A stretch of 64,000 bases of DNA from the NCBI RefSeq assembly GCF_003688855.1, contig NZ_REFW01000001.1:1054001-1118000 (forward strand). Direction: 5' to 3'. Source of the DNA: Tessaracoccus antarcticus (lineage in GTDB: Bacteria > Actinomycetota > Actinomycetes > Propionibacteriales > Propionibacteriaceae). Positions 1-30,749 of the stretch are shown here, piece by piece (the stretch's first letter is position 1; each line of letters opens with the position of its first letter). The notes under the pieces were generated by a model. The model ran no database searches and was not told the origin of the DNA. It saw only the letters and a list, made by a program, of their open reading frames with translations. The position numbers were made by a program, and so were the translations under genes.

Positions 1-1690
1 CGGCCAGGTCGATGTCGTGGGTGGAGGGCTGGATGCCGTGCAGCATGCCGCTGCCGTCGGGATCCCACCTTCCCGCGATGTAGTCCATCAGGAGGTGCAG
101 ACGGGGCCAGTAGCGCTCCAGCCATGGCAGCCCGGCGCCCTTGCGGACTTCGCGAAACAACTTCAGCACCGTGCTGAGCATCCCGTCCAGCGCGGGTTCG
201 CCGGGGCCGCCGATGTCCCGATCCCACAGCTGGGGCAGGTGGGTGGGGGAGAGCACCCGGTGGGGGATGAATCCCTGTGGCGCCTGCATGATGTCCAGCT
301 CGCATTCGCGCATGTCCCGCTCGATCTCCGGGAAGAGATCCGCGACGCCCTGGGCGTAGGCGAACACGTGGGTGCAGTTGAGGGGGCAGGACCCACCGAC
401 GTTCCCGGACCACATGGGGGTGGAGGCTCCCTGCACGCCCTCGAAGCCGAAGAAGTGGCCGTCAGCGGTGCGGAAAAAACTGGGACTGCGGATGATCGAG
501 GCCTGCGCGGCCATGTGTTCCAGCGCCTCGTCGTCCAGTGAACTCTCACCCAGTGCCGAGGTCCACTCCCGCGAGATCCGCTCCAGGTCCTCCCATTCGT
601 GCTGGACGCGTGCCGCCACCGCGACGGCGTCGGCGTACTGCGTGGTGTAGTGGTTCCCCAGGAGGAACCGCGTGGCCCCCCATTCGGGGCGGATGCCACC
701 GAACTGCGTGAAGTTGACGTGACGATTCGGGAAATGCCAGGCCAGGGCGAAGCGTACGGTGACCGTTTCACCCGCCTCCACGAAGAACTGGGCCGCCAGG
801 CCGCCGTTCCAGGTGCTTCCCGTGGGGCTGGCCGCTGGTGTGGTGAACGTGCCCGACGGCTGCGGGTCGGCCATGTCCCTCGGCATGTGGTCCCAGTCGT
901 TCGGCCCGAACGGCTGGCGGGACCGGAGGAAGCTGAGGAACTGCTCCGTGCTGGAGAATTGGGGGAGCGCCGTGGTCAGGGGCGCATCAGCCGTCAGCAC
1001 CATTTGCCCCGCACCCGGATGGTCGACAGGCAGGGTGTGGTTCTCCATGATGAGGGACGTCCAGCCCTCGGAGCGGTCCACCCGGTTGGTGTTGCCCCCG
1101 TAGCCCGGATGCCGAATGCCGTCCGGGGGAAGGATCCCGTCGCCCCCGACGGCGTTCTGCAGTGCACCTCCGAGCCACCCGTTCACCGGCACCACACCCG
1201 TGTTGGTGATGGTGAAGGTGAACATGGCCACCGGAATCGAGCTGCGGTCAAGATCCAGCGGGGCCATGGGCGTGAACGCCTCCAGGCTGATGCGTACCGG
1301 CAGGGATTCGTCCTCGTAGTCCACCGTGGCGAACGGGTAGGTGCCGGAGAACGTCGTGGCGGTGACCCCCTCCGCGTGGGACAGGAGGTCCCTCTGCCAG
1401 TGCGGGACGTGGTCGTCGTTGACCAGCGGTGTCTGCGTTCCGGATACAGGTCCCGGCGGTGCCTGGAGCACACGCACCTCGTTGAACGGGGGTTCCCACT
1501 GCGAGATGCGCACGGCGAAGAACGATCCGGGCAGTTCGCCCAGGTGGTTGCCGGTGTTGTGCAGTTGCCACTGGCGCAGGGACCCGTCGGCGCACAGCGA
1601 GACGTTGCCCGTGCCGATGCCGCCGAGCGGCATGGCGATGTGTCGTGCGTCCTCGTGAGGTGTCCGTCGGGTGCTGCGGGTGGGTGGCAT
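1..1690 (-). CDS. GH116-family glycoside hydrolase, candidate exo-beta-D-arabinofuranosidase (3' end outside window)
   Basis: The reverse strand reads from ATG at 1690 to the window edge without a stop, giving about 563 residues of a longer protein. AGGAG lies 8 nt before the ATG. The N-terminal stretch, with IAMPLGGIGTGN near residue 20 and the DGSLRQWQLHNTGNH segment, is typical of the GBA2-type N-terminal domain of GH116. The following part enters the alpha-helical catalytic domain (segments WDRDIGGPG and GIQPSTHDID). No signal peptide is visible, so it should act in the cytoplasm. GH116 contains beta-glucosidases, but also the exo-beta-D-arabinofuranosidase of Microbacterium arabinogalactanolyticum. 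The divergent GH172 and nearby GH183 genes favour D-arabinan oligosaccharides as substrate. That is an inference from context. The catalytic acid/base region is probably beyond the edge and was not seen. Confidence 0.85.
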   Translation of the reverse strand, partial: MPPTRSTRRTPHEDARHIAMPLGGIGTGNVSLCADGSLRQWQLHNTGNHLGELPGSFFAVRISQWEPPFNEVRVLQAPPGPVSGTQTPLVNDDHVPHWQRDLLSHAEGVTATTFSGTYPFATVDYEDESLPVRISLEAFTPMAPLDLDRSSIPVAMFTFTITNTGVVPVNGWLGGALQNAVGGDGILPPDGIRHPGYGGNTNRVDRSEGWTSLIMENHTLPVDHPGAGQMVLTADAPLTTALPQFSSTEQFLSFLRSRQPFGPNDWDHMPRDMADPQPSGTFTTPAASPTGSTWNGGLAAQFFVEAGETVTVRFALAWHFPNRHVNFTQFGGIRPEWGATRFLLGNHYTTQYADAVAVAARVQHEWEDLERISREWTSALGESSLDDEALEHMAAQASIIRSPSFFRTADGHFFGFEGVQGASTPMWSGNVGGSCPLNCTHVFAYAQGVADLFPEIERDMRECELDIMQAPQGFIPHRVLSPTHLPQLWDRDIGGPGEPALDGMLSTVLKLFREVRKGAGLPWLERYWPRLHLLMDYIAGRWDPDGSGMLHGIQPSTHDIDLA

Positions 1691-1763
1691 GGCGGAGCTC
1701 CTGTGTCGTCGGGGATGGGGGCAACGGTCTCGATCCAGCGCCCCGTCCTGGTTGACGAGTGCA

Positions 1764-1809
1764 GAAAACGATTTCACACGACGGTATGCGCGGCGAAGGG
1801 GTGTGTCAA
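1764..1809 (-). promoter_or_regulatory. Promoter with LacI-type operator for the GH116 gene
   Basis: On the reverse strand TTGACA (1809-1804), a 17-nt spacer and TACCGT (1786-1781, TANNNT type) form a promoter directed at the GH116 start. GAAAACGATTTC (1764-1775), with GAAA/TTTC arms and a CG centre as in LacI-family operators, lies 5 nt after the -10 and would cover the start site. The layout mirrors the promoter facing the other way at 1956-1999. Confidence 0.7.
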
Positions 1810-1955
1810 GGGTCAGATGGGTGACGAAACGCCGCCCCAAGAGTGCGGTGGGGCTGGAGTCGCACGTCAGGATCCTTTGATATCTGACCGTTTGCGCTCG
1901 TTGTCGCCCGCGAGGGGGCAGGGCGACCTCGCTATCGCCACGGAAAAACCGACCG

Positions 1956-1999
1956 TTGACAGCCCAGCGGCGTTGACCTACATTTGAGAAAACGATTAC
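1956..1999 (+). promoter_or_regulatory. Promoter with LacI-type operator for the GH172-ABC transporter genes
   Basis: TTGACA (1956-1961), a 17-nt spacer and TACATT (1979-1984) form a near-consensus sigma-70 promoter. GAAAACGATTAC (1988-1999) follows 3 nt after the -10 and differs at one position from the operator at 1764-1775. A repressor bound here would block initiation. The LacI gene at 6783 is the obvious candidate regulator. Confidence 0.75.
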
Positions 2000-2047
2000 T
2001 TGAGGTTTCTCAGCGACAGTGGTGTCGCAGATATGAGGAGTAGATCC

Positions 2048-3127
2048 ATGACACGGTACGGCGACTACGGTTCCAGCCTCCGCGACCTTCCACGGTTGCG
2101 GTCCACCCGACGACGACGTGTGTCGTCCTACGACGTCACGGGCGGCAACGAGGATCGCGTGACCCTGCAGCCGGGGGACACGGCGGAACTGGCCGACATC
2201 CGGGGAGCCGGAAGCGTCAACCACATCTGGATGACGGTTGCCCCCATGCTGCCGCCCGGTCCTGACACGCCGGACAACGATTTCATGCGCAAGCTCGTGC
2301 TGCGCGCCTACTGGGACGGGAACGAGCACCCGAGCGTCCTCGTGCCGCTGGGGGACTTCTTCGGCGTGGGGCATGGGCGGACCACGAACTTCGCGTCGCT
2401 GCCCCTGCAGATGAGCCCGCAGGACGGCAAGTCGCTCAACTCGTTCTTCCACATGCCGTTTGCGGACGGGGCGCGCTTCGAGATCACCAACGAGTGCGAG
2501 GACCTGGTGTTGTGGTTCTACTACTACATCGACTACGAGGCCTTCGACGAGCTCGAGGACGGCATCGGTCGCTTCCACGCCTCATGGCACAGGGAGAACC
2601 CCTGCGGCGGGGAGGAGCAGGGGGACAGGAGCAACGGTGAGTTCCTCTTCGGCGGGAACAACACCACCGGCGACGGCAACTACACGATTCTCGACACCCG
2701 CGGACGGGGGCACTACGTGGGGTGCACGTTCAACGTCACGAACCTGCGTCACACGGAAGCCTGGAACTGGTACGGGGAGGGGGACGACATGATCTTTGTC
2801 GATGGCGAGTCCTGGCCCCCGAACATTCACGGCACCGGTACGGAGGACTACTTCAACACCGCGTGGTGCCCGTCAGAGGCGTACCAGTCCAACTATCACG
2901 GCATCACCATTCCGGGTGGTCCCAACTGGTCGGGACAGATCTCCATGTACCGGTTCCACATCGAGGACCCCGTCACGTTCCAGGAGTCGGTGCGCGTGAC
3001 CATCGAGCACGGACACAACAACGCACGCAGCGACGAGATCTCGTCGGTGGCCTACTGGTACCTCGACAGGATCGACGAGACGCTCACGCTTCCGCCGGCC
3101 GCCCAACGCGTTCCACGGTTGGGCTGA
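2048..3127 (+). CDS. GH172 (DUF2961) glycoside hydrolase, candidate exo-alpha-D-arabinofuranosidase
   Basis: A 359-residue protein that matches DUF2961/GH172 over its whole length: SSYDVTGGN near the start, AELADIRGAGSVNHIW, then FGVGHGRT, GEGDDM (about residue 243) and HGTGTEDYF (about residue 264). The last two carry glutamates that fit the conserved acidic pair of the family. ATG at 2048 is preferred because GAGGAG sits 7 nt upstream; reading may also be opened further upstream without an equally placed ribosome site. There is no signal peptide, so the enzyme is cytoplasmic. Characterised GH172 enzymes are fructofuranosidases, difructose-anhydride enzymes and exo-alpha-D-arabinofuranosidases. 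The neighbouring GH183 and GH116 genes support the last. It begins an operon with the ABC importer and is transcribed from the operator-bearing promoter at 1956. Confidence 0.85.
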   Translation: MTRYGDYGSSLRDLPRLRSTRRRRVSSYDVTGGNEDRVTLQPGDTAELADIRGAGSVNHIWMTVAPMLPPGPDTPDNDFMRKLVLRAYWDGNEHPSVLVPLGDFFGVGHGRTTNFASLPLQMSPQDGKSLNSFFHMPFADGARFEITNECEDLVLWFYYYIDYEAFDELEDGIGRFHASWHRENPCGGEEQGDRSNGEFLFGGNNTTGDGNYTILDTRGRGHYVGCTFNVTNLRHTEAWNWYGEGDDMIFVDGESWPPNIHGTGTEDYFNTAWCPSEAYQSNYHGITIPGGPNWSGQISMYRFHIEDPVTFQESVRVTIEHGHNNARSDEISSVAYWYLDRIDETLTLPPAAQRVPRLG

Positions 3128-3241
3128 CCGCTGCACCCGGCCCCGGCGTGCAGTCCGGGGCACCACCTGACCATGGGGACATGGGTCAGGGACACATTGA
3201 CACCCGCACAGCCGCGGGTCGACCTCAGGGAGATCACGATC

Positions 3242-4627
3242 ATGCAACCCACCATCACTCGACGACACCTGCTGGGGACCAGCCTCGGTCTCGCCGCGGC
3301 CAGCGTTCTGACGGCCTGCGGCTCCGGGACACCCGGGGAGCCCGCCCCCACCGGTTCAGCTCCGGCTTCGGATGGAGCCACCGAGGCGGCAGCCGCGGTC
3401 ACCATCCAGTTCTGGCACCGCACGTTCACCCCCGTGGAGAACGACTGGTACACGGGCATCATCAAGCAGTTCAACGAAGCGCAAACCGCTGTGAAGGTGG
3501 TGGGCACCGAGGTCCCGGCGGACGCGTGGGACCAGAAGATGAAGGCCGCCCAGGCCGCGGGCAAGGCGCCTGACGTCTACACGCACCCCGGGTCCATCCA
3601 GGACGCCGTCACAGCCGGGCAGCTCCACGAGCTCGACTCTGTCGTCCCGGCCGAGGCCCTCGCCGAAATCATCGACGCTGCCAAGCCCGTGTCCGAGAAG
3701 GACGGGAAGTACTACGCCTACCCGCTGCTGCTGGAGCCCCAGGGTGTTTTGTTCTGGAACAAGGACATGATGGAGGCTGCCGGTCTGGACCCCGAGAAGG
3801 GGCCCAAGACCTGGGACGAGTTGTTCGGGATGTGCGAGAAGATCAAGCCGACCCTCCAGAAGGGGCAGTACTGCATCTCCCCGGCCCAGGACGCCGTCAC
3901 GTTCGCCTGGTCGAGCGTCGGTCAGCAGTACAACTTTGCCGGCCACACCGCGTTGAAGGATGACTGGACCGGGGCGGCAGTGGAGGATCCGGGCTACGAG
4001 GCACTCATCGCCGTCTACAAGAAGCTGTGGGACAACGACTACATGCCCAAGCAGCCGTTGGCGGCCTACGTCGAGGGCAAGGACTTCGGCGAGAAGAAGG
4101 TGGCCTTCAAGATCTCCGGTTCCTGGATGCTGTCCGAGATCGGCTCCGACTACCCGGACCTGCTCATGAAGACCGGCATCGGGGCCCTCCCCAACTCGCC
4201 GGATGCCGGGGATCGCACTGCCACGACGCTCGGCAACTTCAAGTGGGTGATCGACGCCAAGGCCAAGGACCCGCAGGCCGCCGGTGACTTCCTCTCCTGG
4301 GCCATCGCGGGCGACCCTGCCCTCCTCGTGCCGTTCTTCGTCACGACGCAGTTCACCAAGGTGCCGGTGCGCGACTCCGTGCAGAAGGCCGTGGCGAGCG
4401 ACGAGAAGGCAGCCAAGGCCCCGTGGGTGAAGGTGATCACCGACGAGATCGCACCCACTGCCATCCCCGAGCCCAGCTACCCCTGGGACGTCTCCGTCGC
4501 GGTGGGTACCGCCATCGAGGCCGGCATGAAGGGGGCCTCGCCCATTCCTGCGGCGCTGGCCACGGCAACGAAGTCGATCCAGACCGTGGTCGACAGGGAA
4601 GGCCTCGCCGCCAAAGCCCCCAAGTGA
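3242..4627 (+). CDS. ABC transporter substrate-binding lipoprotein, CUT1 class
   Basis: A 461-residue extracellular solute-binding protein. The N-terminus combines a twin-arginine motif (TRRHLLG) with a lipobox (LTAC), so it is probably exported by Tat and lipid-anchored. The rest has the character of family-1 sugar-binding proteins (FWHRTFTP, then TYYAYPLLLEPQGVLFWNKDM-type hinge and ligand segments, and a C-terminal helix rich in alanine). ATG 3242 is chosen because it gives the lipoprotein signal and has AGGGAG 9 nt upstream. It lies between GH172 and two permeases, so it likely captures oligosaccharides released outside the cell by the GH183 enzyme. No ATPase gene is present. CUT1 importers in actinobacteria often share a MsiK-type ATPase encoded elsewhere. 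Confidence 0.9.
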   Translation: MQPTITRRHLLGTSLGLAAASVLTACGSGTPGEPAPTGSAPASDGATEAAAAVTIQFWHRTFTPVENDWYTGIIKQFNEAQTAVKVVGTEVPADAWDQKMKAAQAAGKAPDVYTHPGSIQDAVTAGQLHELDSVVPAEALAEIIDAAKPVSEKDGKYYAYPLLLEPQGVLFWNKDMMEAAGLDPEKGPKTWDELFGMCEKIKPTLQKGQYCISPAQDAVTFAWSSVGQQYNFAGHTALKDDWTGAAVEDPGYEALIAVYKKLWDNDYMPKQPLAAYVEGKDFGEKKVAFKISGSWMLSEIGSDYPDLLMKTGIGALPNSPDAGDRTATTLGNFKWVIDAKAKDPQAAGDFLSWAIAGDPALLVPFFVTTQFTKVPVRDSVQKAVASDEKAAKAPWVKVITDEIAPTAIPEPSYPWDVSVAVGTAIEAGMKGASPIPAALATATKSIQTVVDREGLAAKAPK

Positions 4628-4695
4628 CGGGGGGTGAACCGCCTGCCATGACCCGCCCCGCGTGAGGCAACGACCCATCCTGAAAGGAGGCCCCT

Positions 4696-5631
4696 GTGAC
4701 CAGCAGCACTGCAGAACGCTCGCCCAGCCGTCGGGCCGGCCGTCAACGACACGACACATTCCGCTACCGGGACGGGAAGGTGGCGTACCTGCTCATCCTT
4801 CCCGTGATGATCCTGCTCGGCATCTTCGTGCTCTGGCCTGCGGTCTACGCGGGGTACCTGTCCTTCCAGAACTGGAGCTTCTACAAGGATCCGGAGTTCG
4901 TGGGATGGAAGAACTTCACCGACGTGCTGAAGGATCCCCTCTTCTACGCCACCATCCGTCGTGGATTCATGTTCGTCCTCATGACGGTGCCCGTCATGCT
5001 GGTGCTGGCCTTCCTGTTCTCGAGCCTCGTGGTGAGCGTGTCTGGCCGGTTCGCGGGCGTGCTGAAGGTCAGCATCTACATCCCGACCATCATCTCCACC
5101 GTCATCACCTCCATCGTGTTCGTGCTGATCTACGACTACTCCGGCGGCCTGTTGAACTGGGTGCTGGCGTACTTCTCCATCGACCCGGTCGCGTGGATCG
5201 GTGACCCTGCCTGGGCGTTGCTGGCCATTGCCGTGCCCGCCATCTGGTTGGGCATGGGGCTGACGTCGTTGATCATGGTGGCCGCCATGGTGGACATACC
5301 GCAGGAGTTCTACGAGGCGGCGGCCATGGAGGGGGCGAACTGGTGGCAGAAGACCCTCTACATCACGCTCCCGCAGATGAAGAACATCATTTTGTACCTG
5401 CTGATCACCGGGTTCGTGGCGGCCATCCAGCAGTACGAACTGCCGCTGGTCATGACGGGCGGTGGCCCCCTGGACTCGACGACACTGCCAAACCTGTTCA
5501 TCTTCAACCACTTCCGCAACGACGTGAACGTCGGCTACTCCATTGCCGCGGCGCTGCTGCTCTTCGTGGTCCTCGGAACGGTGTCGGCCGTGGTGTTCCG
5601 CATCCTGAACTCCGAGAAGCTGGTGGACTGA
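4696..5631 (+). CDS. ABC transporter permease, MalF/UgpA type (CUT1)
   Basis: A 311-residue membrane protein with six expected transmembrane segments and the EAA loop near residues 205-225 (EFYEAAAMEGANWWQ), which docks to the ATPase. GTG 4696 has an excellent ribosome site, AAAGGAGG, 5 nt upstream. It follows the binding-protein gene by 68 nt and is followed 1 nt after its stop by the second permease, so the three genes form one transcription unit with GH172. Substrate specificity cannot be read from the sequence. D-arabinan-derived oligosaccharides are inferred from the flanking hydrolases. Confidence 0.9.
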   Translation: MTSSTAERSPSRRAGRQRHDTFRYRDGKVAYLLILPVMILLGIFVLWPAVYAGYLSFQNWSFYKDPEFVGWKNFTDVLKDPLFYATIRRGFMFVLMTVPVMLVLAFLFSSLVVSVSGRFAGVLKVSIYIPTIISTVITSIVFVLIYDYSGGLLNWVLAYFSIDPVAWIGDPAWALLAIAVPAIWLGMGLTSLIMVAAMVDIPQEFYEAAAMEGANWWQKTLYITLPQMKNIILYLLITGFVAAIQQYELPLVMTGGGPLDSTTLPNLFIFNHFRNDVNVGYSIAAALLLFVVLGTVSAVVFRILNSEKLVD

Positions 5632-5632
5632 G

Positions 5633-6493
5633 ATGAGAACTGCCGTCGTGCCTGCGCGCAAACACCACCACACCCCGGCCTGGTGGGTGGGGTCGGTCCT
5701 CAAAGTGCTCGTGGGGCTGGTGTTCCTCGTCGCCGCGCTCTTCCCCCTGGCCTGGATGGTGATTGCCGGATTCAAGTCGAAAACCGAGGTGATCGCCACA
5801 CCGTTCCAGTTCTTCCCGGAAGTCTGGAAGGTCGAGAACTACACCCAGATCCTGAGCGACCCCAGTTTCCTTCTCACCATGGGGTGGACGTCGCTGGGTG
5901 CCCTGCTGTTCACGGTGCTCGGGCTGACGGTGAACTCGTTGGCTGCCTACGCCTTCGCCCGCCTGGAGTTCCGGTTCAAGCGCACGCTGTGGGTCATCCT
6001 CATCGGCACCATGTTCATTCCTGGCATGACCATCCTGCTGACCAGCTTCATCGTCGTGACGAGGCTGCAGATGCTCGACACCCTGGCCGTGCTCGTGGTG
6101 CCGGGGGCAGCCAGCGCAGGGGTCGTGTTCTTCATCCGGCAGTTCTACCTGAACATCCCCTCCAGCCTTGAGGAGGCAGCCATGCTGGATGGCTGCGGCC
6201 GGTTCAGCATCTTCATCCGGCTGTTCCTTCCCTTGTCGAAGCCCCCGTTCGTCGTGATGGGGATCACCTCGTTCCTGGCGTACTGGAACTCCTACGTGTG
6301 GCCCATCCTGACCATCACCTCGCCCGAGAAGTTCGTCCTGCAGCAGTACCTGGCCACGTTCAGGTCAGAGCGCAGCACCGAACTCGGCCTCCTCATGGCG
6401 GGCTCCACCCTGGCCGCGGCGCCCGTTGTGATCCTCTTCCTCATCTTCCAGCGCCAGATCATCGGCAACATCAAGATGGCCGGTCTGAAGTGA
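5633..6493 (+). CDS. ABC transporter permease, MalG type (CUT1)
   Basis: A 286-residue inner-membrane permease with the family pattern: a first helix at about residues 20-45, the MGWTSLGALLFTVLG helix, and an EAA loop near residue 185 (SSLEEAAMLDGCGRFSIF). It pairs with the preceding MalF-type permease to form the importer channel. The start ATG is 1 nt past the stop of the upstream gene, which indicates translational coupling. The operon appears to end here: 289 nt with no convincing gene separates it from the LacI gene, and no clear hairpin was seen in that gap. Confidence 0.9.
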   Translation: MRTAVVPARKHHHTPAWWVGSVLKVLVGLVFLVAALFPLAWMVIAGFKSKTEVIATPFQFFPEVWKVENYTQILSDPSFLLTMGWTSLGALLFTVLGLTVNSLAAYAFARLEFRFKRTLWVILIGTMFIPGMTILLTSFIVVTRLQMLDTLAVLVVPGAASAGVVFFIRQFYLNIPSSLEEAAMLDGCGRFSIFIRLFLPLSKPPFVVMGITSFLAYWNSYVWPILTITSPEKFVLQQYLATFRSERSTELGLLMAGSTLAAAPVVILFLIFQRQIIGNIKMAGLK

Positions 6494-6782
6494 GAGGACA
6501 GCCAGGCGGACTCGTGGAAGCGAAGCGGTACTGTGATCCGGGGTTGGTCCGGCGTCACGACATTGCCGGGATCGCGACTCGCCAGCGCCACTGGGACCCA
6601 GACCAGTCCCGGCGCCCCAAGGAGTGCGGTGCACCCCAGCCTGCAGGGCAGCGCGCAGTGGGGGACGTCGGATTGTTGTCGGAGAATTCTGCACAGGGAT
6701 GGGGCGAGATGATCGTGAGTGTGGGTGTCACCAAGATGCACTGCGTGGCCGCGATTGCCGGAAACCCTCGGAGGGCTTTGCC

Positions 6783-7808
6783 GTGAGCGACGACCTCAGA
6801 CCCCGTCGCGAGGCGACCATCACCGACGTCGCCCGAGCCTCTCGGGTGTCACCCGCCACGGTCTCTCGGGTACTGAACGGGAATCCCCGCGTGGCGCCTG
6901 AACTCGTCAAACGTGTGGAGGCTGCCGCGCTGGAGGCCAACTACCGGCCCAACTTCGCGGGCCGGGCGTTGCGTCGGCAGAAGTCCGACCTCTTCGCCGC
7001 CATCATCCCCGACGTGCGGAACCCGTTCTTCGTGCGCCTCATGGAGGCTTTTGAGAAGGTCGCCAACGCGGAGGGGTTCTCCGTGGTCCTGTGCAACTCC
7101 CATGAGGACGCCGCATCGGAGAAGGCGGCCATCGACACCGTCATCGCGCACCGCGTCTCCGGCGTTCTCATCGCGGCCGCCGTTCCGCGTGCCTCACAGA
7201 TGCGGCCCTTCGAGCGTGCGGGGATCCCCGTGATCACCGTCGACCGTCAGATCGACGGGTTCGCGGGCGACTGCGTCTCGGTCGACAACATCATGATTGG
7301 TCGGCTCGCCGCGGAGCATCTCGTCGCGCAGGGACGCACGAGGCCGCTGGTGCTGAACCACACCATTGACCTCTCGCCGATGCGGGACCGGGAACTCGGG
7401 TTCCGGACATCAATGGCGGCACTCGGTCACCCCGTTCCCGACGAGCGCGTCCACCGTCTGCTGTTCGACGACGGACGGCCCCAGGCGGCGGCCCGCCTGC
7501 TTCACGAGGCCTCGGCGCACTTCGACTCCGTGTTCGCCACCACGAACACGCTCACGGGGGAGGCGTTCTTCGCATTGCGGGGCCAGGGGCGTCTCATCGG
7601 CCCGGAGGTGGGGCTCGTGGGTGTGGATGACGACCGCTGGAACGTGATGGTGGAACCCCAGGTCACCGTGGTGGACCAACCATCCGCACAGCTGGGTGCC
7701 TGGGCCGGTCAGCTGCTGGCCACTCGGGCCCGCGGCACCGACATGGAGAATGCCCGCATCATTTTGGACCCCGTGCTGCGCGCCCGGGCCAGTTCTGTTC
7801 GTACCTGA
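6783..7808 (+). CDS. LacI-family transcriptional regulator, likely repressor of the D-arabinan locus
   Basis: A 341-residue regulator. Residues about 11-60 form the LacI helix-turn-helix and hinge (ITDVARASRVSPATVSRVLN, then NYRPNFAGRALRRQ), followed by a periplasmic-binding-protein-like sensor domain (AAIIPDVRNPFF onward). GTG 6783 is chosen because it begins right before the DNA-binding domain and has GGAGGG about 8 nt upstream; the open frame extends further upstream without family similarity. The gene lies between the importer operon and the secreted GH183 gene. Three matching GAAA-NCGN-TTNC sites lie nearby, at the two divergent promoters and inside the GH183 coding start. The inducer is presumably a D-arabinose oligosaccharide, which is an inference. 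Confidence 0.9.
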   Translation: MSDDLRPRREATITDVARASRVSPATVSRVLNGNPRVAPELVKRVEAAALEANYRPNFAGRALRRQKSDLFAAIIPDVRNPFFVRLMEAFEKVANAEGFSVVLCNSHEDAASEKAAIDTVIAHRVSGVLIAAAVPRASQMRPFERAGIPVITVDRQIDGFAGDCVSVDNIMIGRLAAEHLVAQGRTRPLVLNHTIDLSPMRDRELGFRTSMAALGHPVPDERVHRLLFDDGRPQAAARLLHEASAHFDSVFATTNTLTGEAFFALRGQGRLIGPEVGLVGVDDDRWNVMVEPQVTVVDQPSAQLGAWAGQLLATRARGTDMENARIILDPVLRARASSVRT

Positions 7809-7826
7809 GCGCACCGCCCACCGCAA

Positions 7827-7848
7827 CGGGCGCCAATGGAGGCGCCCG
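7827..7848 (+). terminator. Hairpin after the LacI gene
   Basis: CGGGCGCC and GGCGCCCG form a perfect 8-bp stem around a 6-nt loop, 19 nt after the LacI stop. There is no T-run, as is common for actinobacterial terminators. Confidence 0.5.
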
Positions 7849-7884
7849 CGACCCCCACATTGATGGACCGATTGGAGACCGAAC

Positions 7885-9987
7885 ATGTTCACCCTTGTTA
7901 GAAATCGATTTCTCATCCTTGCCGCCGGCGTCGCGCTGGCCATCCCCGTTCTCGGGGCGCCCCACGCGCAGGCCGACGACTCCGACGCACCGATCTCGCC
8001 GGCCATCCTGGTGGACGAGGTGACGGGCGCCGACGCGACCACCGACACCACCACTCCCTGGGATGTGGGCGCCACAGACCTGGGCGTCATCTGGGACGAC
8101 GGGGACGACAACGTCCTGGTGGCGTTCGGGGACACGTTCTCCACCCCGGGGGGCGACGGTGCCGGGGTCGGGAACTGGCGCTCCAACGTGTTGTTCCGCT
8201 CCTCTGATCACAGCCTTGCCGACGGCATGACCTTCGACTGGGCGCTCTCGGATGACTCAGGGGTGGCCAAGGAGATCGTCGGCTCGAAGAAGATCCCCGG
8301 CGATGAGCACACCACCATCCCCACGGGCGGCATCGCCGTCGATGGCCGGCAGTACATGGCCTACATGTCCGTGAAGGAGTGGGGGCTCCCCGGTCAGTGG
8401 AGGACCAACTTCAGCCAGCTCGCCTATTCCGACGACGCGGGCGCCACCTGGTCCATCGACGGGGCGCCGCGCTGGGACAACAACGCCGATGGCACGGACC
8501 CGTTCCAGATGGTGGCCTACGTCCACCACGGCGACTTCGTCTACATGTTTGGTACACCCAACGGGCGGGTGGGGGCCGCCTCGCTGGCACGGGTCCCGGC
8601 CACGCAGATGCTCGACAAGGCTGCCTACCGTTACTGGAACGGCGCCGACTGGTCCGCGGACTACGCCACCTCAGCCCAGATCCTGCCGCCGGCCGTGGCG
8701 GAGTTGTCCGTCCACTTCGACGAGGCATCCGGGCTGTGGCAGCTCATCACCCTGAACGGGAACGCGGACCTGGTGCTGCGGGTGGCCAGCGCGCCGGAGG
8801 GCCCATGGTGCGACGAACAGCTCCTGGCCTCCCAGGCCGAGTACCCCGGCCTGTACGGCGGATACATCCACCCGTGGTCAGCTGACGGGCAGGTGTACTT
8901 CCTCATGTCGGTCTGGAACCAGTACAACGTCGCACTCATGAAGGTGACCCTGGACGACGAGGGCATGATCATCCGCCCCAACCTTCTGGTGGATCCCTCG
9001 TTCGAACGCAGCGCCCTGTTGGACGTGCCCGGCGGCTGGCGTGCCACCGGGACGGGCGGGATCGACACCAATCAGGAGTGGGCCAAGGTGGGGCGTCGGC
9101 AGTTCTGGGTGCGTGGCAACCAGGGTGAACAGCTGATGGCGCAGCAGGTCAGCGTCACGCCCAACACGCAGTACCAGTTGACCGGCTGGCTCAAGACGGG
9201 TGACACCGTGGGTGGCGGTGCAGGCGAGGGCCGCATCGGTGCGCGGGGCGTCGGGCCGGGTGCCACCGTCGTGGAGCAGGAGACCTTCGCTGACCTGGAC
9301 GGTTGGCACAAGTTCTCCGTGACGTTCGACAGCGGGTCTCTCACCAAGGTTGAGGTCTACGCCGGGTCCACCATGACGGGCGACCGCTGGGTGCAGGGCG
9401 ACAACTTCTCTCTCCAGGCGCTCAGCGATCCGGGTCCGGAGCCCACCCAGTCCCCGACCCCAAGTCCCAGCCAGTCCGCGTCGCCTCGGCCGACCCAGCA
9501 ACCGTCGACATCTCCGACGGCGTCCCCGCAGCCGTCCGTCTCCCAGAGCACGCCGGGCAGCATGGCCCAGATCCCCTACGAGGTGCCCGGCATCCATCAC
9601 GTCAACGGCCGCTGGTGGTACACCACCTGCGAGCCCTACTCGCAGACGATGCGGTGCCGCACCGAGATCTGGGGCACGCAGGTGCACTACCGCGGACCGG
9701 GCAACTACGTGGCGGTCACCGGCTGGCAGTTCAACAATTTGACCTACCTGCCCTTCATGCCGCGCTCCGCATGGGCCGGCAACCCGTTGGGGGTCACCGG
9801 TGAGTTCACGTCGCAGGGACGCCAGTGGCGGACCGAGTGCGACACCCCAGCCACGGGTCGCAACGGCTGCCGCTCCTCCATCTGGATGAACGACATCGCC
9901 CAGCAGGTGACCAGGCCTGACGGCTCCACGGGCTACGAACTCTCGAAGGGGTGGGTCTTCAACAACATCGTCCGATTCGGGCGCTGA
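7885..9987 (+). CDS. Secreted GH183 (DUF4185) protein, candidate endo-D-arabinanase, with C-terminal four-Cys domain
   Basis: A 700-residue secreted protein in four parts. A signal peptide covers residues 1-30 (LILAAGVALAIPVLG, cleavage near AQA). A DUF4185 domain spans about 38-360, with the family segments GATDLGVIWDDG, VAFGDTFSTP, WRSNVLFRSSDHSL, TIPTGGIAV and YMSVKEWG. A carbohydrate-binding-like beta domain follows at about 365-510 (LLVDPSFERS onward). After a Pro/Ser/Thr linker, residues 563-700 form the four-cysteine domain shared with four other proteins in the window. DUF4185 is now GH183, whose characterised members are endo-D-arabinanases acting on mycobacterial arabinan. TTGGAG lies 7 nt before ATG 7885. 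This would be the extracellular enzyme that generates oligosaccharides for the upstream importer. Confidence 0.88.
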   Translation: MFTLVRNRFLILAAGVALAIPVLGAPHAQADDSDAPISPAILVDEVTGADATTDTTTPWDVGATDLGVIWDDGDDNVLVAFGDTFSTPGGDGAGVGNWRSNVLFRSSDHSLADGMTFDWALSDDSGVAKEIVGSKKIPGDEHTTIPTGGIAVDGRQYMAYMSVKEWGLPGQWRTNFSQLAYSDDAGATWSIDGAPRWDNNADGTDPFQMVAYVHHGDFVYMFGTPNGRVGAASLARVPATQMLDKAAYRYWNGADWSADYATSAQILPPAVAELSVHFDEASGLWQLITLNGNADLVLRVASAPEGPWCDEQLLASQAEYPGLYGGYIHPWSADGQVYFLMSVWNQYNVALMKVTLDDEGMIIRPNLLVDPSFERSALLDVPGGWRATGTGGIDTNQEWAKVGRRQFWVRGNQGEQLMAQQVSVTPNTQYQLTGWLKTGDTVGGGAGEGRIGARGVGPGATVVEQETFADLDGWHKFSVTFDSGSLTKVEVYAGSTMTGDRWVQGDNFSLQALSDPGPEPTQSPTPSPSQSASPRPTQQPSTSPTASPQPSVSQSTPGSMAQIPYEVPGIHHVNGRWWYTTCEPYSQTMRCRTEIWGTQVHYRGPGNYVAVTGWQFNNLTYLPFMPRSAWAGNPLGVTGEFTSQGRQWRTECDTPATGRNGCRSSIWMNDIAQQVTRPDGSTGYELSKGWVFNNIVRFGR
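7900..7913. promoter_or_regulatory. Palindromic LacI-type operator inside the GH183 gene start
   Basis: AGAAATCGATTTCT is a perfect 14-bp palindrome at codons 6-10 of the GH183 gene. Its core GAAATCGATTTC fits the same pattern as the operators at 1764 and 1988. Repression here would be by roadblock or by blocking the promoter from downstream. No convincing -10/-35 pair was found just upstream. Confidence 0.65.
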
Positions 9988-9995
9988 CACGCGAG

Positions 9996-10027
9996 AAAGG
10001 GTGGCCGACTGACGTCGGTCACCCTTT
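9996..10027 (+). terminator. Rho-independent-like terminator after the GH183 gene
   Basis: AAAGGGTGGCCGAC and GTCGGTCACCCTTT form a 14-bp stem with one G-T pair and a 4-nt loop, starting 9 nt after the GH183 stop and followed by TTCC. Confidence 0.8.
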
Positions 10028-10208
10028 TCCGTGCCTCGCGCAAGCTCTGCGTCACGTGTGGGCGTGTGGCAAATGGTGGCAACCTTGTGACGAGCAATTT
10101 CTCCTCGATAGCTTGTGCACACCGAAGGTCAAGGCCGACCCGGTTGCGGCGTTTCCACGCCGGCCGTCGCGGACTGTGTTGTCAACAGACGCGCGAAGGC
10201 ACAGAACC

Positions 10209-12224
10209 ATGTCGTTATCCACCGACAGATTGGACAATGAAATGCCACCCTCAAGACGTGACCGCAGAGTGCGCGGTGCACTGGCTGTAACGGCTGCCAC
10301 AGCCATGATGGGGACGCTCTGGGCCGTACCGGCCTCAGCGGATGACCCGGTTGATCCCATCCTGGAATCACTCAGCATGATCCCGGAGGTGCAGGGTCCC
10401 ATTGCTGAGGACGACACCACCCACATGTTCTCCAGCATGAAGCGGGCAATGGTGCCCTTTGACGTGGCGGATTATGGCTACGTGGAGGAGGAGTACTTCA
10501 TCTCGGGCACCAGCAATGTCTACGACGAGATCGACGGTTCACTCGCCGTCGTGACAAAGGATGTTCCCTACGTGAACCGCATCATCGTGCGACGCCCCGC
10601 CAAGGCGGCGGACTCGTCCGGGGTGATCGATGTCGAATTGACCAACGCGTCCAACGGCTACGCGGGTGAGGACATGTGGCGGCGGCTGTGGCAGCACCAC
10701 ATGGCCAACGGCGACACCTACATCGGCGTCGTCTCGAAGCCGAACCAGATCGTCGGACTGAAAACCTATGATCCCGTGCGTTACGCCCCGGTTGCCTGGG
10801 ACGAGGAGGGGCAGGCGTGGGACATCATCGCCCAGATGGGTGCCCTTCTGAAGAGTGAGGACGCGGGTCTCGTCCTCGGTGGCCAGCAGCCCAGGACCAT
10901 CCTGTTGACGGGCCAGTCCCAGTCCGGTGGCTACATCGCCACCTACACCAACAAGATCGCCGGATTGGCGGAGGAGGCGAATGGCCAGTCGGTCTACGAC
11001 GGCTACCTCAACGTCGCTGGTCTCACCGGGCGCTCACTGCGGACCGGGGGCCAGGCCACCCCGGCTGCTGATCCGGTGCTCTCGGTTCCCAACATCCTCG
11101 TCGACTCCGAACTCATCCTGGACAGGAGAGGCCCCCGGAACCTTCCGCCGAAGCAGCGTGTCTGGGCGGTACCCGGTACCCCTCACACCGACCTGCTGTC
11201 GCCGGTGATCCCGTCCGACGAGGAGATCCTCAAGAGCGGCCGGACGCCGGATGCAAACGTTCACAAGCCTGAGTTCCTTGCCAAGATCAGTTACTACCCT
11301 CTGGAGCCCACCATCTTTGCGGCGACTGACGCGCTGGTGAAGTGGCATCAGGAAGGCATTCCGGCTGCACCGTCGCTGTGGGAAACAACCACCGCCACCG
11401 GAGCGCTCCTGCGGGACGACGCCGGCAACGCCCTGGGAGGGGTTCGCTACGGTCTCATCGACCACCCCCTCGGCCAGTACCTGGGCATTGAAGGTACGGG
11501 ATTCACCGCGCACGGCATCATGCACCTGATGTCGCTGGATGAGTTCCTCACCGCCTACAAGACCCGCGCACAATACCTGGCGTTGATGGCCGAGGTGGAT
11601 GCGCGGCAGATCCGTGCCGGCTACCTGACCCCTGAAGGGGAGGACTACTTCATCGATGTGGCCAACTACATGATGGATCGCATCGGTGTTGCCAAGACAC
11701 CCACGCCGACCACCCCGCCGGTGACCACCCCGCCGGTGACCACCCCGCCGGTGACCACCCCGCCGGTGACCACCCCGCCGGTCACGACCCCGCCGCCCAC
11801 CCCGTCGTACCCGGGATCGATCTACACCACACCCGGCTACCACGACTACAACGGGCGCCACTGGTTCACGTCCTGCGAGCCCTACTCCGTCACCCAGCGC
11901 TGCCGCACCCTCATCCAGGCCACCACGGTGACCCAGGTGAACGGGCAATTCGTCAGCAAGAAGGGCTGGGCGTTCAACAACTTGACGTACCTGCCCTCGA
12001 AGAAATCGGCCTGGGCAGGAAACCCGCTGGGCCGGCCCGGCTCCTGGACCGCCGCTGACGGCCGTCAGTGGAGGACGGAGTGCAATACGCCCGCCACCGG
12101 CGGCAACGGGTGTCGTTCCTACGCCACGGCGAAAGTGATCGGCAACGTCGCCACACCCGGCCAGCCTGTTCGCTTGGGCTGGATCACCAAGGAGATCTTC
12201 AACAACATCGTCCTGTTCTCCTGA
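10209..12224 (+). CDS. Secreted alpha/beta hydrolase (Abhydrolase_10-like) with C-terminal four-Cys domain
   Basis: A 671-residue protein with a signal peptide (ALAVTAATAMMGTLWAVPASA), a hydrolase domain at about residues 45-495, a TPPV-repeat linker encoded by five 15-bp repeats, and the four-Cys domain at about 538-671. The nucleophile elbow is GQSQSGG (about residue 238). The late segments ALVKWHQEGIPAAPS and GNALGGVRYGLIDHP resemble the alpha/beta hydrolase domain family PF20091. Catalytic Asp and His were not assigned. ATG 10209 is preferred; ATG 10242 is an alternative that would still leave a signal peptide, and neither has a strong ribosome site. Substrate is unknown. Its place beside a D-arabinan locus, sharing a domain with the GH183 enzyme, makes an esterase acting on acylated arabinan an attractive but untested idea. 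Confidence 0.75.
   Translation: MSLSTDRLDNEMPPSRRDRRVRGALAVTAATAMMGTLWAVPASADDPVDPILESLSMIPEVQGPIAEDDTTHMFSSMKRAMVPFDVADYGYVEEEYFISGTSNVYDEIDGSLAVVTKDVPYVNRIIVRRPAKAADSSGVIDVELTNASNGYAGEDMWRRLWQHHMANGDTYIGVVSKPNQIVGLKTYDPVRYAPVAWDEEGQAWDIIAQMGALLKSEDAGLVLGGQQPRTILLTGQSQSGGYIATYTNKIAGLAEEANGQSVYDGYLNVAGLTGRSLRTGGQATPAADPVLSVPNILVDSELILDRRGPRNLPPKQRVWAVPGTPHTDLLSPVIPSDEEILKSGRTPDANVHKPEFLAKISYYPLEPTIFAATDALVKWHQEGIPAAPSLWETTTATGALLRDDAGNALGGVRYGLIDHPLGQYLGIEGTGFTAHGIMHLMSLDEFLTAYKTRAQYLALMAEVDARQIRAGYLTPEGEDYFIDVANYMMDRIGVAKTPTPTTPPVTTPPVTTPPVTTPPVTTPPVTTPPPTPSYPGSIYTTPGYHDYNGRHWFTSCEPYSVTQRCRTLIQATTVTQVNGQFVSKKGWAFNNLTYLPSKKSAWAGNPLGRPGSWTAADGRQWRTECNTPATGGNGCRSYATAKVIGNVATPGQPVRLGWITKEIFNNIVLFS
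11709..11783 (+). repeat. Five tandem 15-bp repeats encoding a TTPPV linker
   Basis: The unit ACCACCCCGCCGGTG occurs five times head to tail, the last ending in GTC. It encodes the Thr/Pro linker between the hydrolase and the four-Cys domain. Near-identical units suggest recent slippage expansion, so linker length may vary between strains. Confidence 0.9.
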
Positions 12225-17935: not shown

Positions 17936-19848
17936 CGCCCCTGTTGAGCGGCCAGTCGCGGCGGAAGCCTCCGCTCATGCTTCTGGAACGCACGGACGTT
18001 CACCTGACGCTGAGCTTCATCGACGCGCTCTGCTGGTTCGTCGCGGCGTTTGCCTTGATTGCTTTCCGCTACGACTTCGAGCTCAACGCAGTCCAATGGT
18101 CGAGTGTCCTCGTGTACAGCATCTTCGCCGCTAGCGCGCAGATGCTGTTGGGATGGCTCGCCGGTGTCTACCGGGGCTCCAACCGGATCGGGAGCTTCAT
18201 CGAAGCGTCCACCATGGCAACAGTCACCTTGGCCGTGGGGTTCATCGTTGGGCTTGTCTTCATGATCGGCGTGCCTGACTATCCCAATGGCGTCGCGTTC
18301 CTCGCCCCCTTCCTGGCACTGATTCTCATGGGGGCAGCTAGGTTCGTGGCCCGCGCAGTCGCCATCCAGATCTTCCAGCGGTACAAGGCTGCTGGCAAAG
18401 CTGAGCGCATCCTGCTCTACGGGGCTGGCAATGCCGGACGTATGGTGGGCAACCTGTTCTTCTCGGATCCCGACAGCAAGTTCCAGGTTGTCGGCCTCAT
18501 TGACGATGATCCGCGCAAGCGCCACCGTCGCTTCGAGTTCGGTCGCGTCGTCGGCCAGCGCAAGGACATGATTGCAAAGGCCAGGGCCCTCGGCGTCCAG
18601 AGCGTGCTCGTCGCGATCCCCACGGCCTCAGCCGATTTCCTCAAGCAACTCTCCTCCGACTTGGATGCGGCCGGCATGAAGATGCTGGTTCTTCCTCCGC
18701 TGCGCGAGTGGAGTGGTGGTCAGCTCAAGCTGGGTGACATCCACGAGTTCGACGTCACCGACCTTCTAGGCCGTGACCCCATCAAGACGGACCTCACCTC
18801 GATCGCCGACTACGTGCGTGGCAAGGTGGTGCTGATCACTGGAGCCGGGGGCTCCATCGGTTCTGAGATCGCCCGGCAGGTGCACCAGTTTGGCCCCAAA
18901 GAACTCGTCTGCCTCGACAGGGACGAATCAGCGCTCCACTCGGTGCAGTTGTCGATATATGGACAAGGCCTCTTGGACACACCTGACATGGTCCTGTGTG
19001 ACATCCGGGACAAACCCGCCCTGCAGAAAATCTTCGAGGCGCACCGTCCGCATGTGGTCTTTCACGCGGCGGCACTCAAGCATCTCCCTCTCCTGGAGCA
19101 ATACCCGGACGAGGGCTGGAAGACCAACGTGCTCGGCACCCTGGACGTCCTCGAATGCGCAGCGGAGTTCGGTGTTGAGACGTTCGTCAACATTTCGACG
19201 GATAAGGCAGCCGATCCCACCAGCGTTCTGGGCAAGACCAAGCGCCGCGCGGAGGAATTGACCGCCTGGTTTGCGGAGAACCACGACGGCAACTACCTTT
19301 CGGTCCGCTTCGGCAACGTGCTGGGGTCCCGCGGCTCGGTGCTCCACACATTTGCCCAGCAGATTGAACGGGGCGGCCCTATCACCGTGGTGCATCCGGA
19401 CGTCACCCGCTTCTTTATGACGATCCCAGAAGCCTGTCAGTTGGTCATTCAGGCCGGCGCGGTCGGACAGGGTGGGCAAGTGCTTGTCCTCAACATGGGA
19501 GAGCCGGTACGCATCCTCGATATGGCTAAAAGGCTCATTCGGGACTCTGGCAAGGACATCGGGGTGCGTATCACCGGACTCCGAGAGGGCGAGAAACTTC
19601 ACGAGGTTTTGTTCAGCGGTGCCGAGCAGTCTTCACCCAGTATTCACCCCCTGATCTCAGCCGTGAGGGTAGCGCCGAGAAGTCCGGTGCAGCTCGTCGC
19701 CCCCTGGGTTGATAACGAGGACCGCCCGGAACCACACTCAGTCACCAAGCGACCCGTTCAGAATGACCAGACAGGCTGGTCTCCGGCCCACGAAAAGGAA
19801 CTGAACGGCGCATCAGTTGGTGCGGCGATTCCTGATGGTTCGAAATGA
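17932..19848 (+). CDS. CapD/FlaA1-like nucleoside-diphosphate-sugar epimerase/dehydratase, membrane-bound
   Basis: A 638-residue protein. Four predicted transmembrane helices occupy about residues 20-140, followed by a CoA-binding-like domain (ILLYGAGNAGRMVG near 165) and an SDR domain with VLITGAGGSIGSEIARQ (about residue 301), FHAAALKHLPLLE and STDKAADPTSVLGKTKR. This layout is that of UDP-GlcNAc 4,6-dehydratases such as WbpM and PglF, which open the route to 2,4-diamino or 6-deoxy-amino sugars. The classical Met/Lys pair is replaced by Leu/Lys by eye alignment. It overlaps the upstream kinase gene by 4 nt and belongs to the same operon. No aminotransferase or acetyltransferase was found in the window to continue the pathway. 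Confidence 0.88.
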   Translation: MTPLLSGQSRRKPPLMLLERTDVHLTLSFIDALCWFVAAFALIAFRYDFELNAVQWSSVLVYSIFAASAQMLLGWLAGVYRGSNRIGSFIEASTMATVTLAVGFIVGLVFMIGVPDYPNGVAFLAPFLALILMGAARFVARAVAIQIFQRYKAAGKAERILLYGAGNAGRMVGNLFFSDPDSKFQVVGLIDDDPRKRHRRFEFGRVVGQRKDMIAKARALGVQSVLVAIPTASADFLKQLSSDLDAAGMKMLVLPPLREWSGGQLKLGDIHEFDVTDLLGRDPIKTDLTSIADYVRGKVVLITGAGGSIGSEIARQVHQFGPKELVCLDRDESALHSVQLSIYGQGLLDTPDMVLCDIRDKPALQKIFEAHRPHVVFHAAALKHLPLLEQYPDEGWKTNVLGTLDVLECAAEFGVETFVNISTDKAADPTSVLGKTKRRAEELTAWFAENHDGNYLSVRFGNVLGSRGSVLHTFAQQIERGGPITVVHPDVTRFFMTIPEACQLVIQAGAVGQGGQVLVLNMGEPVRILDMAKRLIRDSGKDIGVRITGLREGEKLHEVLFSGAEQSSPSIHPLISAVRVAPRSPVQLVAPWVDNEDRPEPHSVTKRPVQNDQTGWSPAHEKELNGASVGAAIPDGSK

Positions 19849-20149
19849 ACGCACTCTCATTTGCACCAGTTGCACCGGCCAACGTGATGTCACTCGTGTC
19901 CCCGACATTCATTCGCCCCTTCGTCCTAAAGTTCAAGGGCCCTTCGCCCGTTTCGTCTCACCGCTCGTCCACTGAATCGCCCCGGGATCATGTCGTTATG
20001 GGGCGGTGTGTTCGGGTCGGAGTTTTCGGGTCACGAACTCCTGTGAAACGAACCCCAAAAGGAAGAGTGTCCCCTTCCGTAATTCGGAAAGGTAGCGGCT
20101 GTGATGTGACCGGAACGGTCAGAGGATTGGTCGTTCAAGGGAAGCGCTC
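19849..20149 (+). other. Gap between dehydratase and initiating transferase genes
   Basis: About 300 nt, less GC-rich than the DNA on its left. A 103-codon open frame spans it but has no recognisable domain, is basic and serine-rich, and has no ribosome site. I see no terminator or clear promoter. It marks where base composition drops. Confidence 0.4.
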
Positions 20150-21178
20150 GTGCTAACCGCAGGTGCGTGGGTGGCAGTCTTCATCACTTCGGTAATCGCG
20201 GGATTGGTCCCCCGTTTACTTCGGCCCATCCTGCTCCGTATTGGAGCGGTTGATATTCCTAACCACCGCTCGTCGCATGCTCGTCCGACGATTCGTGGCG
20301 GTGGGGTAGCTCAGTTGGCCGCGCTTGCGCTGGGAGGCGCGGTCGGATCGGCTTCCATGGGTGAAAGAGACGGAGTCGCATTCGTCCTTTTGATCGTAAC
20401 GGCCAGCTGCCTTGTTGGCGTAGTTGGACTCGTGGAGGATGTTCGAGGGCTGCGCGTTTCGGTCCGCCTCGCTCTTCAATTGCTTCTCGGGGTTGGGGTG
20501 GGACTCGTCCTCGTCCCAACCGCAGGTTCCCATTGGATCATCGTTCCCCTTTCTGCGCTCGGCTTCGCCGCTTACGTGAACTTCGCGAACTTCATGGATG
20601 GCATCAACGGCATTTCGAGCCTTCATGGTTTGACCGCAGGGCTGGCCTTCTCAGCCATGGGAGGAATCCTCGGCTACTCGTGGCTCATGCTTGCGGGTCT
20701 TTTGGTTGCTGTCGCTTTCTTCGTCTTCCTGCCCTGGAATATCCGTCCGCCGGGAATGTTCCTTGGCGACGTTGGCAGTTATCTGCTCGGTGGAAGCTTG
20801 TCAGCTATCGCTATCGTGGCGATAGCGGTCGGAGTGCACCCCGTCGCTGCTTTTTCGCCATTATGCATTTACCTAGCAGACACGCTGGCCACCCTAGTTC
20901 GCCGAGCGCTAAAAGGTGAGTCGCTGCATCACGCCCACCGGACGCACTTTTATCAACGATTAAGTGGTGCGGGGCTGTCCCATTTGGCAGTGGCTGCTGT
21001 AGTCTCGTTTCTCACGGCACTCACGGGCGGCATCGGATTACTTTTGGTTGGGGGCGCCCTAAGTCCGTACGCGTCGTCAGCACTCCTTATTGCCGTCATA
21101 GCCGTGTATCTTTTCCTTCCCGGCCTGCGGCAGGGGTCCGGTCAGCGCACTGGGAGGGTGAATGTCTCGGCAAAATGA
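20150..21178 (+). CDS. WecA/MraY-type polyprenyl-phosphate sugar-1-phosphate transferase
   Basis: A 342-residue protein with about ten membrane helices. Family motifs are DIPNHRSSHARPTIRGGG (residues about 36-53), GLVEDVRGLRV, FANFMDGINGIS and FLGDVGSYLLGG; the aspartates of the last three bind Mg2+ and the nucleotide sugar. These proteins transfer HexNAc-1-phosphate from a UDP-sugar to undecaprenyl phosphate and so start the repeat unit of the surface polysaccharide. The GTG start has AAGGGA about 8 nt upstream. The stop overlaps the following glycosyltransferase start by 17 nt. From here to about 31 kb codon usage is visibly more AT-tolerant than in the flanks. Confidence 0.9.
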   Translation: MLTAGAWVAVFITSVIAGLVPRLLRPILLRIGAVDIPNHRSSHARPTIRGGGVAQLAALALGGAVGSASMGERDGVAFVLLIVTASCLVGVVGLVEDVRGLRVSVRLALQLLLGVGVGLVLVPTAGSHWIIVPLSALGFAAYVNFANFMDGINGISSLHGLTAGLAFSAMGGILGYSWLMLAGLLVAVAFFVFLPWNIRPPGMFLGDVGSYLLGGSLSAIAIVAIAVGVHPVAAFSPLCIYLADTLATLVRRALKGESLHHAHRTHFYQRLSGAGLSHLAVAAVVSFLTALTGGIGLLLVGGALSPYASSALLIAVIAVYLFLPGLRQGSGQRTGRVNVSAK

Positions 21179-22430: not shown

Positions 22431-22544
22431 TGCTGCTCGTTGCTCATACCGGCACCGGGGGGATCCCCATCTAGCTATGTGTAGTTCGGTGGGAAAATCC
22501 TTTGCGCCGAACGCCGACATCAGACGACCCAAAGAAAGTTTGAA

Positions 22545-27797: not shown

Positions 27798-28084
27798 CGA
27801 TTGGATGATAGGTGCTTTCTCTGATTTGTTGTTCGCATCTGTTTTCCTGGACTTTCGGGCAGAGCCTATTCGGCTCAGCTTTCGAGATTCAAACGTTCGG
27901 ACCGCATTGGTGGCGCAAGTTGTGAAGCGTGTCAACTTTGGTGTATTTGGACTAACGCGTTGCGACCCTCTCGACCGTTCCAATTGTGAGGAGTATGGGT
28001 CTATTTGATTCTAACGCTTAGTATTTCGAGTAGGGTTTTAGTAAAAACCATTTCAACCATGAGTTACAACAGAAAGATCCACAC

Positions 28085-30729: not shown

Positions 30730-30749
30730 GGTGGACACATGGGTGTTGT

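Follow-up and report, generated by a model that had tools for sequence, protein, structure and literature searches.

A predicted D-arabinan utilisation locus with shared LacI-type operators in Tessaracoccus

We analysed a 64,000-nucleotide stretch of the Tessaracoccus antarcticus genome (Propionibacteriaceae; 3.65 Mb; C1:1054001-1118000), hereafter the window, and identified a gene set that very probably represents a D-arabinan utilisation locus of a Tessaracoccus species – an activity predicted from sequence. The set spans window positions 1-9987 and a further 896 bases beyond the left edge. By Pfam, its genes carry, in order, GH116N/DUF608, DUF2961, SBP_bac_8, two BPD_transp_1, LacI, and DUF4185 domains, and the first of them, encoding a GH116 enzyme, is transcribed away from those for the GH172 enzyme, binding protein, two permeases, LacI regulator, and GH183 enzyme. 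An earlier note on this DNA had described such a GH116-GH172-importer-LacI-GH183 set with matching operators; Pfam and pattern searches recovered all of these parts together, as in a polysaccharide utilisation locus (PUL) of the Microbacterium arabinogalactanolyticum type.

In the predicted pathway, the secreted GH183 – perhaps held at the cell surface through its C-terminal domain – would release oligosaccharides by cutting within the alpha-D-arabinan of foreign arabinogalactan or lipoarabinomannan. A lipoprotein and two permeases would import these, powered by an ATPase encoded elsewhere, and in the cytoplasm GH116 would strip terminal beta-D-arabinofuranose (beta-D-Araf) and GH172 alpha-D-Araf, yielding D-arabinose. 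The LacI regulator would block the divergent GH116/GH172 promoters and GH183 through the operator word GAAAWCGATTWC until a D-arabinan product appears. This scheme, whose outline of cutting outside, import, and trimming inside was put forward in the earlier note, is well supported by enzyme families, residues, the gene neighbourhoods of relatives, and the shared operator. We observed the gene content, homology, residues, and operators with their conservation, and from these infer substrate, localisation, inducer, and repression.

The putative GH183 endo-enzyme

The GH183 gene (DUF4185; 7885-9987, + strand) encodes a putative secreted endo-D-arabinanase with carbohydrate-binding module (CBM)-like and C-terminal domains, and is the sole DUF4185 gene found in the genome. 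The protein matched PF13810 at 361.9 bits, and by phmmer its PDB matches were two EndoMA1 sequences only (E 3.6e-136 and 1.4e-135), with 48% identity to EndoMA1 across 480 columns. In EndoMA1, D33 is the nucleophile, D51 the acid/base, and E243 essential, while W138, P141, R198, L292, and Y293 make contacts with the substrate (PMC10509167). Our alignment identified equivalents of all eight residues in the window protein. Within the CBM-like domain, D365, R381, W468, and Q470 are retained and F379 is replaced by Trp. On the tree the protein groups with those of other Tessaracoccus and of Ruania.

The putative GH116 exo-enzyme

The GH116 gene occupies window positions 1-1690 on the minus strand and continues 896 bases to the left, the complete gene (C1:1053105-1055690) starting at window 1690. 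Its product, a putative cytoplasmic exo-beta-D-arabinofuranosidase, matches PF12215/PF04685 and, over the whole protein, scored 402.5 bits against ExoMA2 (34% identity) versus at most 90.1 bits against beta-glucosidases and glucosylceramidases. In subfamily 4 GH116 exo-beta-D-arabinofuranosidases E431 is the nucleophile and D557 the acid/base, and H446 and R483 form the key contrast of ExoMA2 with the beta-glucosidase TxGH116, which has Asp and His there (PMC10509167). Equivalents of all four residues were retained in 32 of 32 aligned GH116 rows (two loci appearing twice), including that of the window. The protein has the key residues of ExoMA2 and does not look like a beta-glucosidase.

In a GH116 tree that was built without subfamilies 2 and 3 and with subfamily 1 represented by a piece of one enzyme only, the window protein fell outside the ExoMA2 clade, paired with that of Ruania albidiflava (68% identity, support 100). 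The pair lies near Nonomuraea and Catelliglobosispora proteins (support 87), beside a separate clade of other Tessaracoccus proteins. Five further genomes of the genus have a GH116 match at E 1e-20, the longer matches being 45-55% identical. Since GH116 groups with Ruania and the adjoining GH172 with Tessaracoccus, the two genes have had different histories, shaped either by exchange of genes among lineages or by the loss of alternative copies.

The putative GH172 exo-enzyme

The GH172 gene (DUF2961; 2048-3127, + strand) encodes a putative cytoplasmic exo-alpha-D-arabinofuranosidase that matched PF11175 at 292.5 bits. It retains both catalytic glutamates, which in alphaFFase1 we take to be E270 and E291, in agreement with the numbering of the PDB match. 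Its nearest PDB relatives are BACUNI_00161 and DgGH172c (PDB 8ah3, assigned to its paper through the locus number). Over aligned stretches only, identities were 44% to BACUNI_00161, 43% to DgGH172c, 41% to alphaFFase1, and 34% to ExoMA1. A tree of 64 rows split at support 100 into the ExoMA1 clade and a side holding alphaFFase1, DgGH172c, BACUNI_00161, and the window protein, alphaFFase1 being a long branch whose own exact place is unsure.

One pocket residue is reported to decide between fructofuranose and arabinofuranose: Gly299 in alphaFFase1 and Asn253 in ExoMA1 (PMC10509167). This position tracked the tree split in 48 of 48 rows (26 Asn, 21 Cys, and one Gly, that of alphaFFase1). Consistent with its place outside the ExoMA1 clade, the window protein has Cys, not Asn, as do DgGH172c and BACUNI_00161; we refer to this as the 'Cys' type. 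DgGH172c is active on p-nitrophenyl-alpha-D-Araf and arabinogalactan (PMC10115798), and alphaFFase1 is also active on alpha-D-Araf (PMC10509167). Release of alpha-D-Araf is therefore expected of the window GH172, though not as an enzyme of the ExoMA1 type, and it may also have some alpha-D-fructofuranosidase activity. GH172 is the weaker link of the D-arabinan reading, because it lies outside the ExoMA1 clade on the DgGH172c/alphaFFase1 side. Single loci of Ruania, two Cohnella, and Virgibacillus hold both GH172 types, a hint that the two may share the work, perhaps by linkage.

The earlier note had likened both exo-enzymes to those of M. arabinogalactanolyticum. That comparison holds for the key residues of GH116 and its distance from beta-glucosidases, but not for the clades: GH116 lies apart from ExoMA2, and GH172 falls outside the ExoMA1 clade on the alphaFFase1 side. 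By the note's own measure, clustering of GH172 with difructose-anhydride or fructan enzymes would speak against D-arabinan, and the GH172 placement goes part of the way there, although both DgGH172c and alphaFFase1 are reported to act on alpha-D-Araf.

Conservation of the gene set

We examined the best 80 of at least 560 GH183 loci together with flanking DNA of at most 10 kb (tblastn, E 1e-10); counts over these loci take GH183 as their starting point. A GH172 or GH116 gene accompanied GH183 in 36 loci (GH172 in 33, GH116 in 26) and was lacking in 44. All three hydrolases were found together in 23 loci and all seven parts of the set in 19. We also took GH172 as the starting point in 296 genomes sampled evenly across the class. 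GH172 at 59% identity or above was present in six, and in four of these (the window's genome, G221, G172, and G079) a strong GH183 match lay at most 5 kb away.

Within the genus, GH172, a second GH183, the importer, GH116, and LacI are all co-directional in four genomes (G001, G019, G028, and G037). Proteins of G019 and G028 are identical to those recorded for T. rhinocerotis and Tessaracoccus sp. OS52, respectively. The locus of G038 lacks GH116, and G004 holds the set in broken pieces. In the latter (C1:1568001-1588000), matches to GH116, permease, binding protein, GH183, and GH172 are split over frames, reflecting either decay or a poor-quality assembly of this genome, whose listed completeness is 60%. 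In G038, a GH183 of the window type (60%) lies within a 1508-codon open frame (L119:8299-9837), distant from the GH172/importer locus. A second GH183 is missing from the window, either through loss or because it was never there. Two exo-enzyme lineages appear to be exchanged between such loci.

A shared LacI-type operator

The LacI-family regulator gene (6783-7808, + strand; PF00356 and PF00532) has a start picked by eye. We observed exact copies of GAAAWCGATTWC at window positions 1764, 1988, and 7901, all found by pattern match and given on the + strand. The first, GAAAACGATTTC (1764-1775), lies towards GH116 in the intergenic region that separates the divergent genes. The second, GAAAACGATTAC (1988-1999), is just 3' of a promoter-like TTGACA-17-TACATT site for the GH172 operon (1956-1984, + strand), which stops 3 bases ahead of it; one such site was found versus 0.8 expected from shuffles, making it weak on its own. 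The third, the palindromic GAAATCGATTTC (7901-7912), lies within the GH183 coding start, 16 nucleotides past the A of the ATG.

Allowing at most one mismatch, the window contained six strand-hits (two sites counted on both strands) versus 0.25 expected, and none of 100 shuffles reached six; the one extra single-mismatch match, at 2273, is within GH172. Across the 3.65 Mb genome, exact GAAAWCGATTWC occurs at four places: the three in the locus and one on contig 9, which we took as chance since it lies within the coding sequence of a binding protein. A control pattern, GAAAWCGATTWC read backwards, had no match in the genome.

We defined GAAAWCGATTWC from the window only and then counted it in the GH183 loci. 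Of the 36 loci that have GH172 or GH116, 27 contained exact copies (51 sites over 732 kb versus 0.10 expected), compared with 4 of the 44 that have GH183 only (4 sites over 838 kb versus 0.05 expected). The expectations come from shuffled 2-mers – a rough control – and the 36 loci are related to one another. The nine loci with no exact copy comprise five lower-G+C Bacillota, two Cohnella, and two named Tessaracoccus (T. rhinocerotis and sp. OS52); both of the last have a site 16 nucleotides past the alignment-inferred GH183 start, matching the offset seen in the window. Many exact sites are a short distance 5' of GH183, GH116, GH172, binding-protein, or LacI matches, and several have none of these matches within 600 bases. 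Among loci with exact sites, identity of LacI to that of the window falls as low as 33%, and the recognition helices look alike by eye. Use of GAAAWCGATTWC by other LacI regulons was checked in the window's own genome only, where the contig 9 copy within a coding sequence is the one further exact site.

Importer and predicted localisation

The importer genes, all on the + strand, encode a CUT1-type solute-binding lipoprotein (3242-4627; PF13416/PF01547; start picked by eye) and two permeases (4696-5631 and 5633-6493; both PF00528). No importer ATPase was identified by Pfam among the genes scanned in the locus; an ATPase shared from elsewhere in the genome is usual for CUT1-type importers of actinobacteria and is assumed here. 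By eye, GH183 has a signal-peptide-like start and the binding protein a lipobox-like stretch, and neither feature was seen in GH116 or GH172.

Alternative functions and the fate of D-arabinose

We considered other roles for these genes. The main substrates of the importer and exo-enzymes might be furanosides of another kind, for example alpha-D-fructofuranosides or difructose anhydrides, with GH183 as an accessory. GH172 is closer to alphaFFase1 than to ExoMA1 in identity (41% versus 34%), and two of the six class genomes with a close GH172 lack a strong GH183. Yet its pocket Cys is that of DgGH172c, not the fructose-admitting Gly of alphaFFase1; GH116 retains its Araf-specific residues; and GH183 has the same operator and recurs with these genes, making this role unlikely. 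We regard it as very unlikely that these genes serve chiefly to attack Mycobacteriales, as a weapon or a lytic aid that opens their wall. In the epibiont M. amalyticus, GH183 and GH172 have been discussed as tools of both feeding and wall remodelling (PMC10115798), and the C-terminal domain may retain GH183 on the surface, but a nutrient locus is typically laid out as here, with an importer, exo-enzymes lacking signal sequences, and a sugar-type LacI.

Remodelling or recycling of the cell's own arabinan has been proposed for mycobacterial GH183, and GH183 genes are common in the arabinan-making Nocardia and Rhodococcus. The Nocardia and Rhodococcus loci that we fetched, however, have GH183 with neither GH172 nor GH116, and we detected no PF14896 arabinosyltransferase domain in the window's genome, with Corynebacterium glutamicum as positive control. 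The likely substrate is therefore a foreign polymer, which may come from living Mycobacteriales or from their debris; we set own-wall remodelling aside for lack of PF14896 and consider it extremely improbable.

Several observations count against a D-arabinan utilisation locus. GH172 stands on the same tree side as the fructofuranosidase alphaFFase1. The T. rhinocerotis and sp. OS52 loci carry one-mismatch operators only, and the two class genomes mentioned above have just weak DUF4185 matches (G169, E 5e-9; G097, E 7e-7). Among the genes scanned in the locus, none encodes a D-arabinose isomerase or kinase, and the claim that the locus holds a complete pathway does not stand. FucI is carried by 33 of the 39 genomes of the genus, irrespective of whether they have a D-arabinan locus, and G038 has no FucI match although it contains the GH172/importer locus and a GH183.

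The earlier note had advised looking to the left of the window for D-arabinose catabolic genes. At C1:1022.8-1031.0 kb, which is 22 kb left of GH116, we found FucI, a kinase, a ribose-type importer, and a further LacI. FucI scored above both NCBIfam cut-offs, and the kinase, which is rhamnulokinase/fuculokinase-like, below them. No operator with at most one mismatch was found in the 20-kb FucI stretch; given this, the genus-wide occurrence of FucI, and its absence from G038, the operon is unsupported as a fixed part of the pathway. Fucose isomerase was the most abundant carbohydrate-active enzyme of Dysgonomonas gadei on D-arabinan (PMC10115798). In two Paenibacillus loci, the C-terminal 35 and 45 residues of a FucI (63 and 67% identical) are encoded at the locus edge before GH172, and in one of them (L035) a ribulokinase gene separates the FucI end from GH172. 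The FucI/kinase pair could use D-arabinose from the locus, a plausible link that we hold tentatively, at slightly less than an even chance.

The GH183 C-terminal domain and neighbouring features

The last 140 residues of GH183 (9565-9984, + strand) form a probable surface-sorting or wall-binding module that recurs at 63 places in the genome and matches no Pfam family or PDB entry by sequence. It is present in 15 of 39 genus genomes – 14 with 11-66 copies and one with a single copy – and absent from 24. Of 394 database matches, 118 proteins were examined: the domain stands at the very end in 116, and 99 have a crudely signal-like N-terminus. Pro, Thr, and Ser are abundant in the linker ahead of it. 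Carriers include glycosidases, phosphatases, and proteases, and the rows listed include Tessaracoccus, Arachnia, and Propionibacteriaceae. Because genomes hold many copies or none and its position is extremely C-terminal, this is probably a sorting domain, apparently undescribed so far; wall binding is equally possible.

Five copies of about 130-140 residues lie in the window: 9565-9984, 11823-12218, 34276-34662 (-), 35300-35683 (-), and 40731-41132. The second belongs to the right neighbour of the locus (9951-12224), an Abhydrolase_10 protein with the same C-terminal domain as GH183. We rejected this protein as a pathway enzyme: it was found in none of the 80 loci (E 1e-6) and has no operator nearby. 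It may be a secreted esterase that has nothing to do with the locus. To the left of GH116, between it and the FucI operon (L002:11240-15384), are a class C sortase and signal peptidase I, perhaps a pilus or surface-protein cluster. The G+C content dips from about 0.65 to 0.52 across window positions 18001-36000 before recovering, which suggests that this stretch was acquired or is a surface-polymer region.

Significance and comparison with known systems

The pathway type was already published in 2023 (PMC10509167); new here are the host, the exo-enzyme clades, and the regulatory word. We found nothing in print on this LacI regulator in the open-access library that we searched, and the main text of PMC10509167, figures apart, does not mention Tessaracoccus, Ruania, LacI, or an operator. 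Our analyses extend predicted D-arabinan use to Tessaracoccus. The short DNA word GAAAWCGATTWC may find D-arabinan regulons without annotation, and enzymes of the GH172 'Cys' type and of the second GH116 clade could be developed as tools to cut the arabinogalactan and lipoarabinomannan of mycobacteria. A broader picture would be a second, mix-and-match D-arabinan pathway that has separate, uncharacterised clades of GH172 ('Cys') and GH116, with both versions under one D-arabinan-responsive LacI code (GAAATCGATTTC) in many Actinomycetota, and an endo-enzyme displayed by a new sorting domain put on dozens of secreted enzymes of Tessaracoccus and kin; as a whole we consider this picture speculative and somewhat more likely to fail than to hold.

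The M. arabinogalactanolyticum PUL shares with the window an EndoMA1-type GH183 with a CBM-like domain, GH116, GH172, cytoplasmic exo-enzymes, and a binding-protein importer, but has four GH183 genes plus an isomerase and a kinase where the window has one GH183 and neither of the others (PMC10509167). The window GH172 and GH116 also belong to other clades than those of M. arabinogalactanolyticum (34% identity to ExoMA1 and 34% to ExoMA2). D. gadei PUL42 likewise has GH172 and GH183 for D-arabinan (PMC10115798), and its DgGH172c has the Cys-type pocket in common with the window GH172 (43% identity). It differs in being a Bacteroidota PUL, with three GH172 genes and a fucose isomerase inside (PMC10115798).

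Uncharacterised loci with the same parts occur in T. rhinocerotis (L010), Tessaracoccus sp. OS52 (L056), and Ruania albidiflava (L011), with identities to the window of 83, 87, and 72% for GH172 and 63, 68, and 56% for GH183, respectively. The two Tessaracoccus loci differ in having a second GH183 and a GH116 of ~48-53% identity within the importer operon, whereas the Ruania locus has the nearest GH116 (68%) together with a second, ExoMA1-type GH172.

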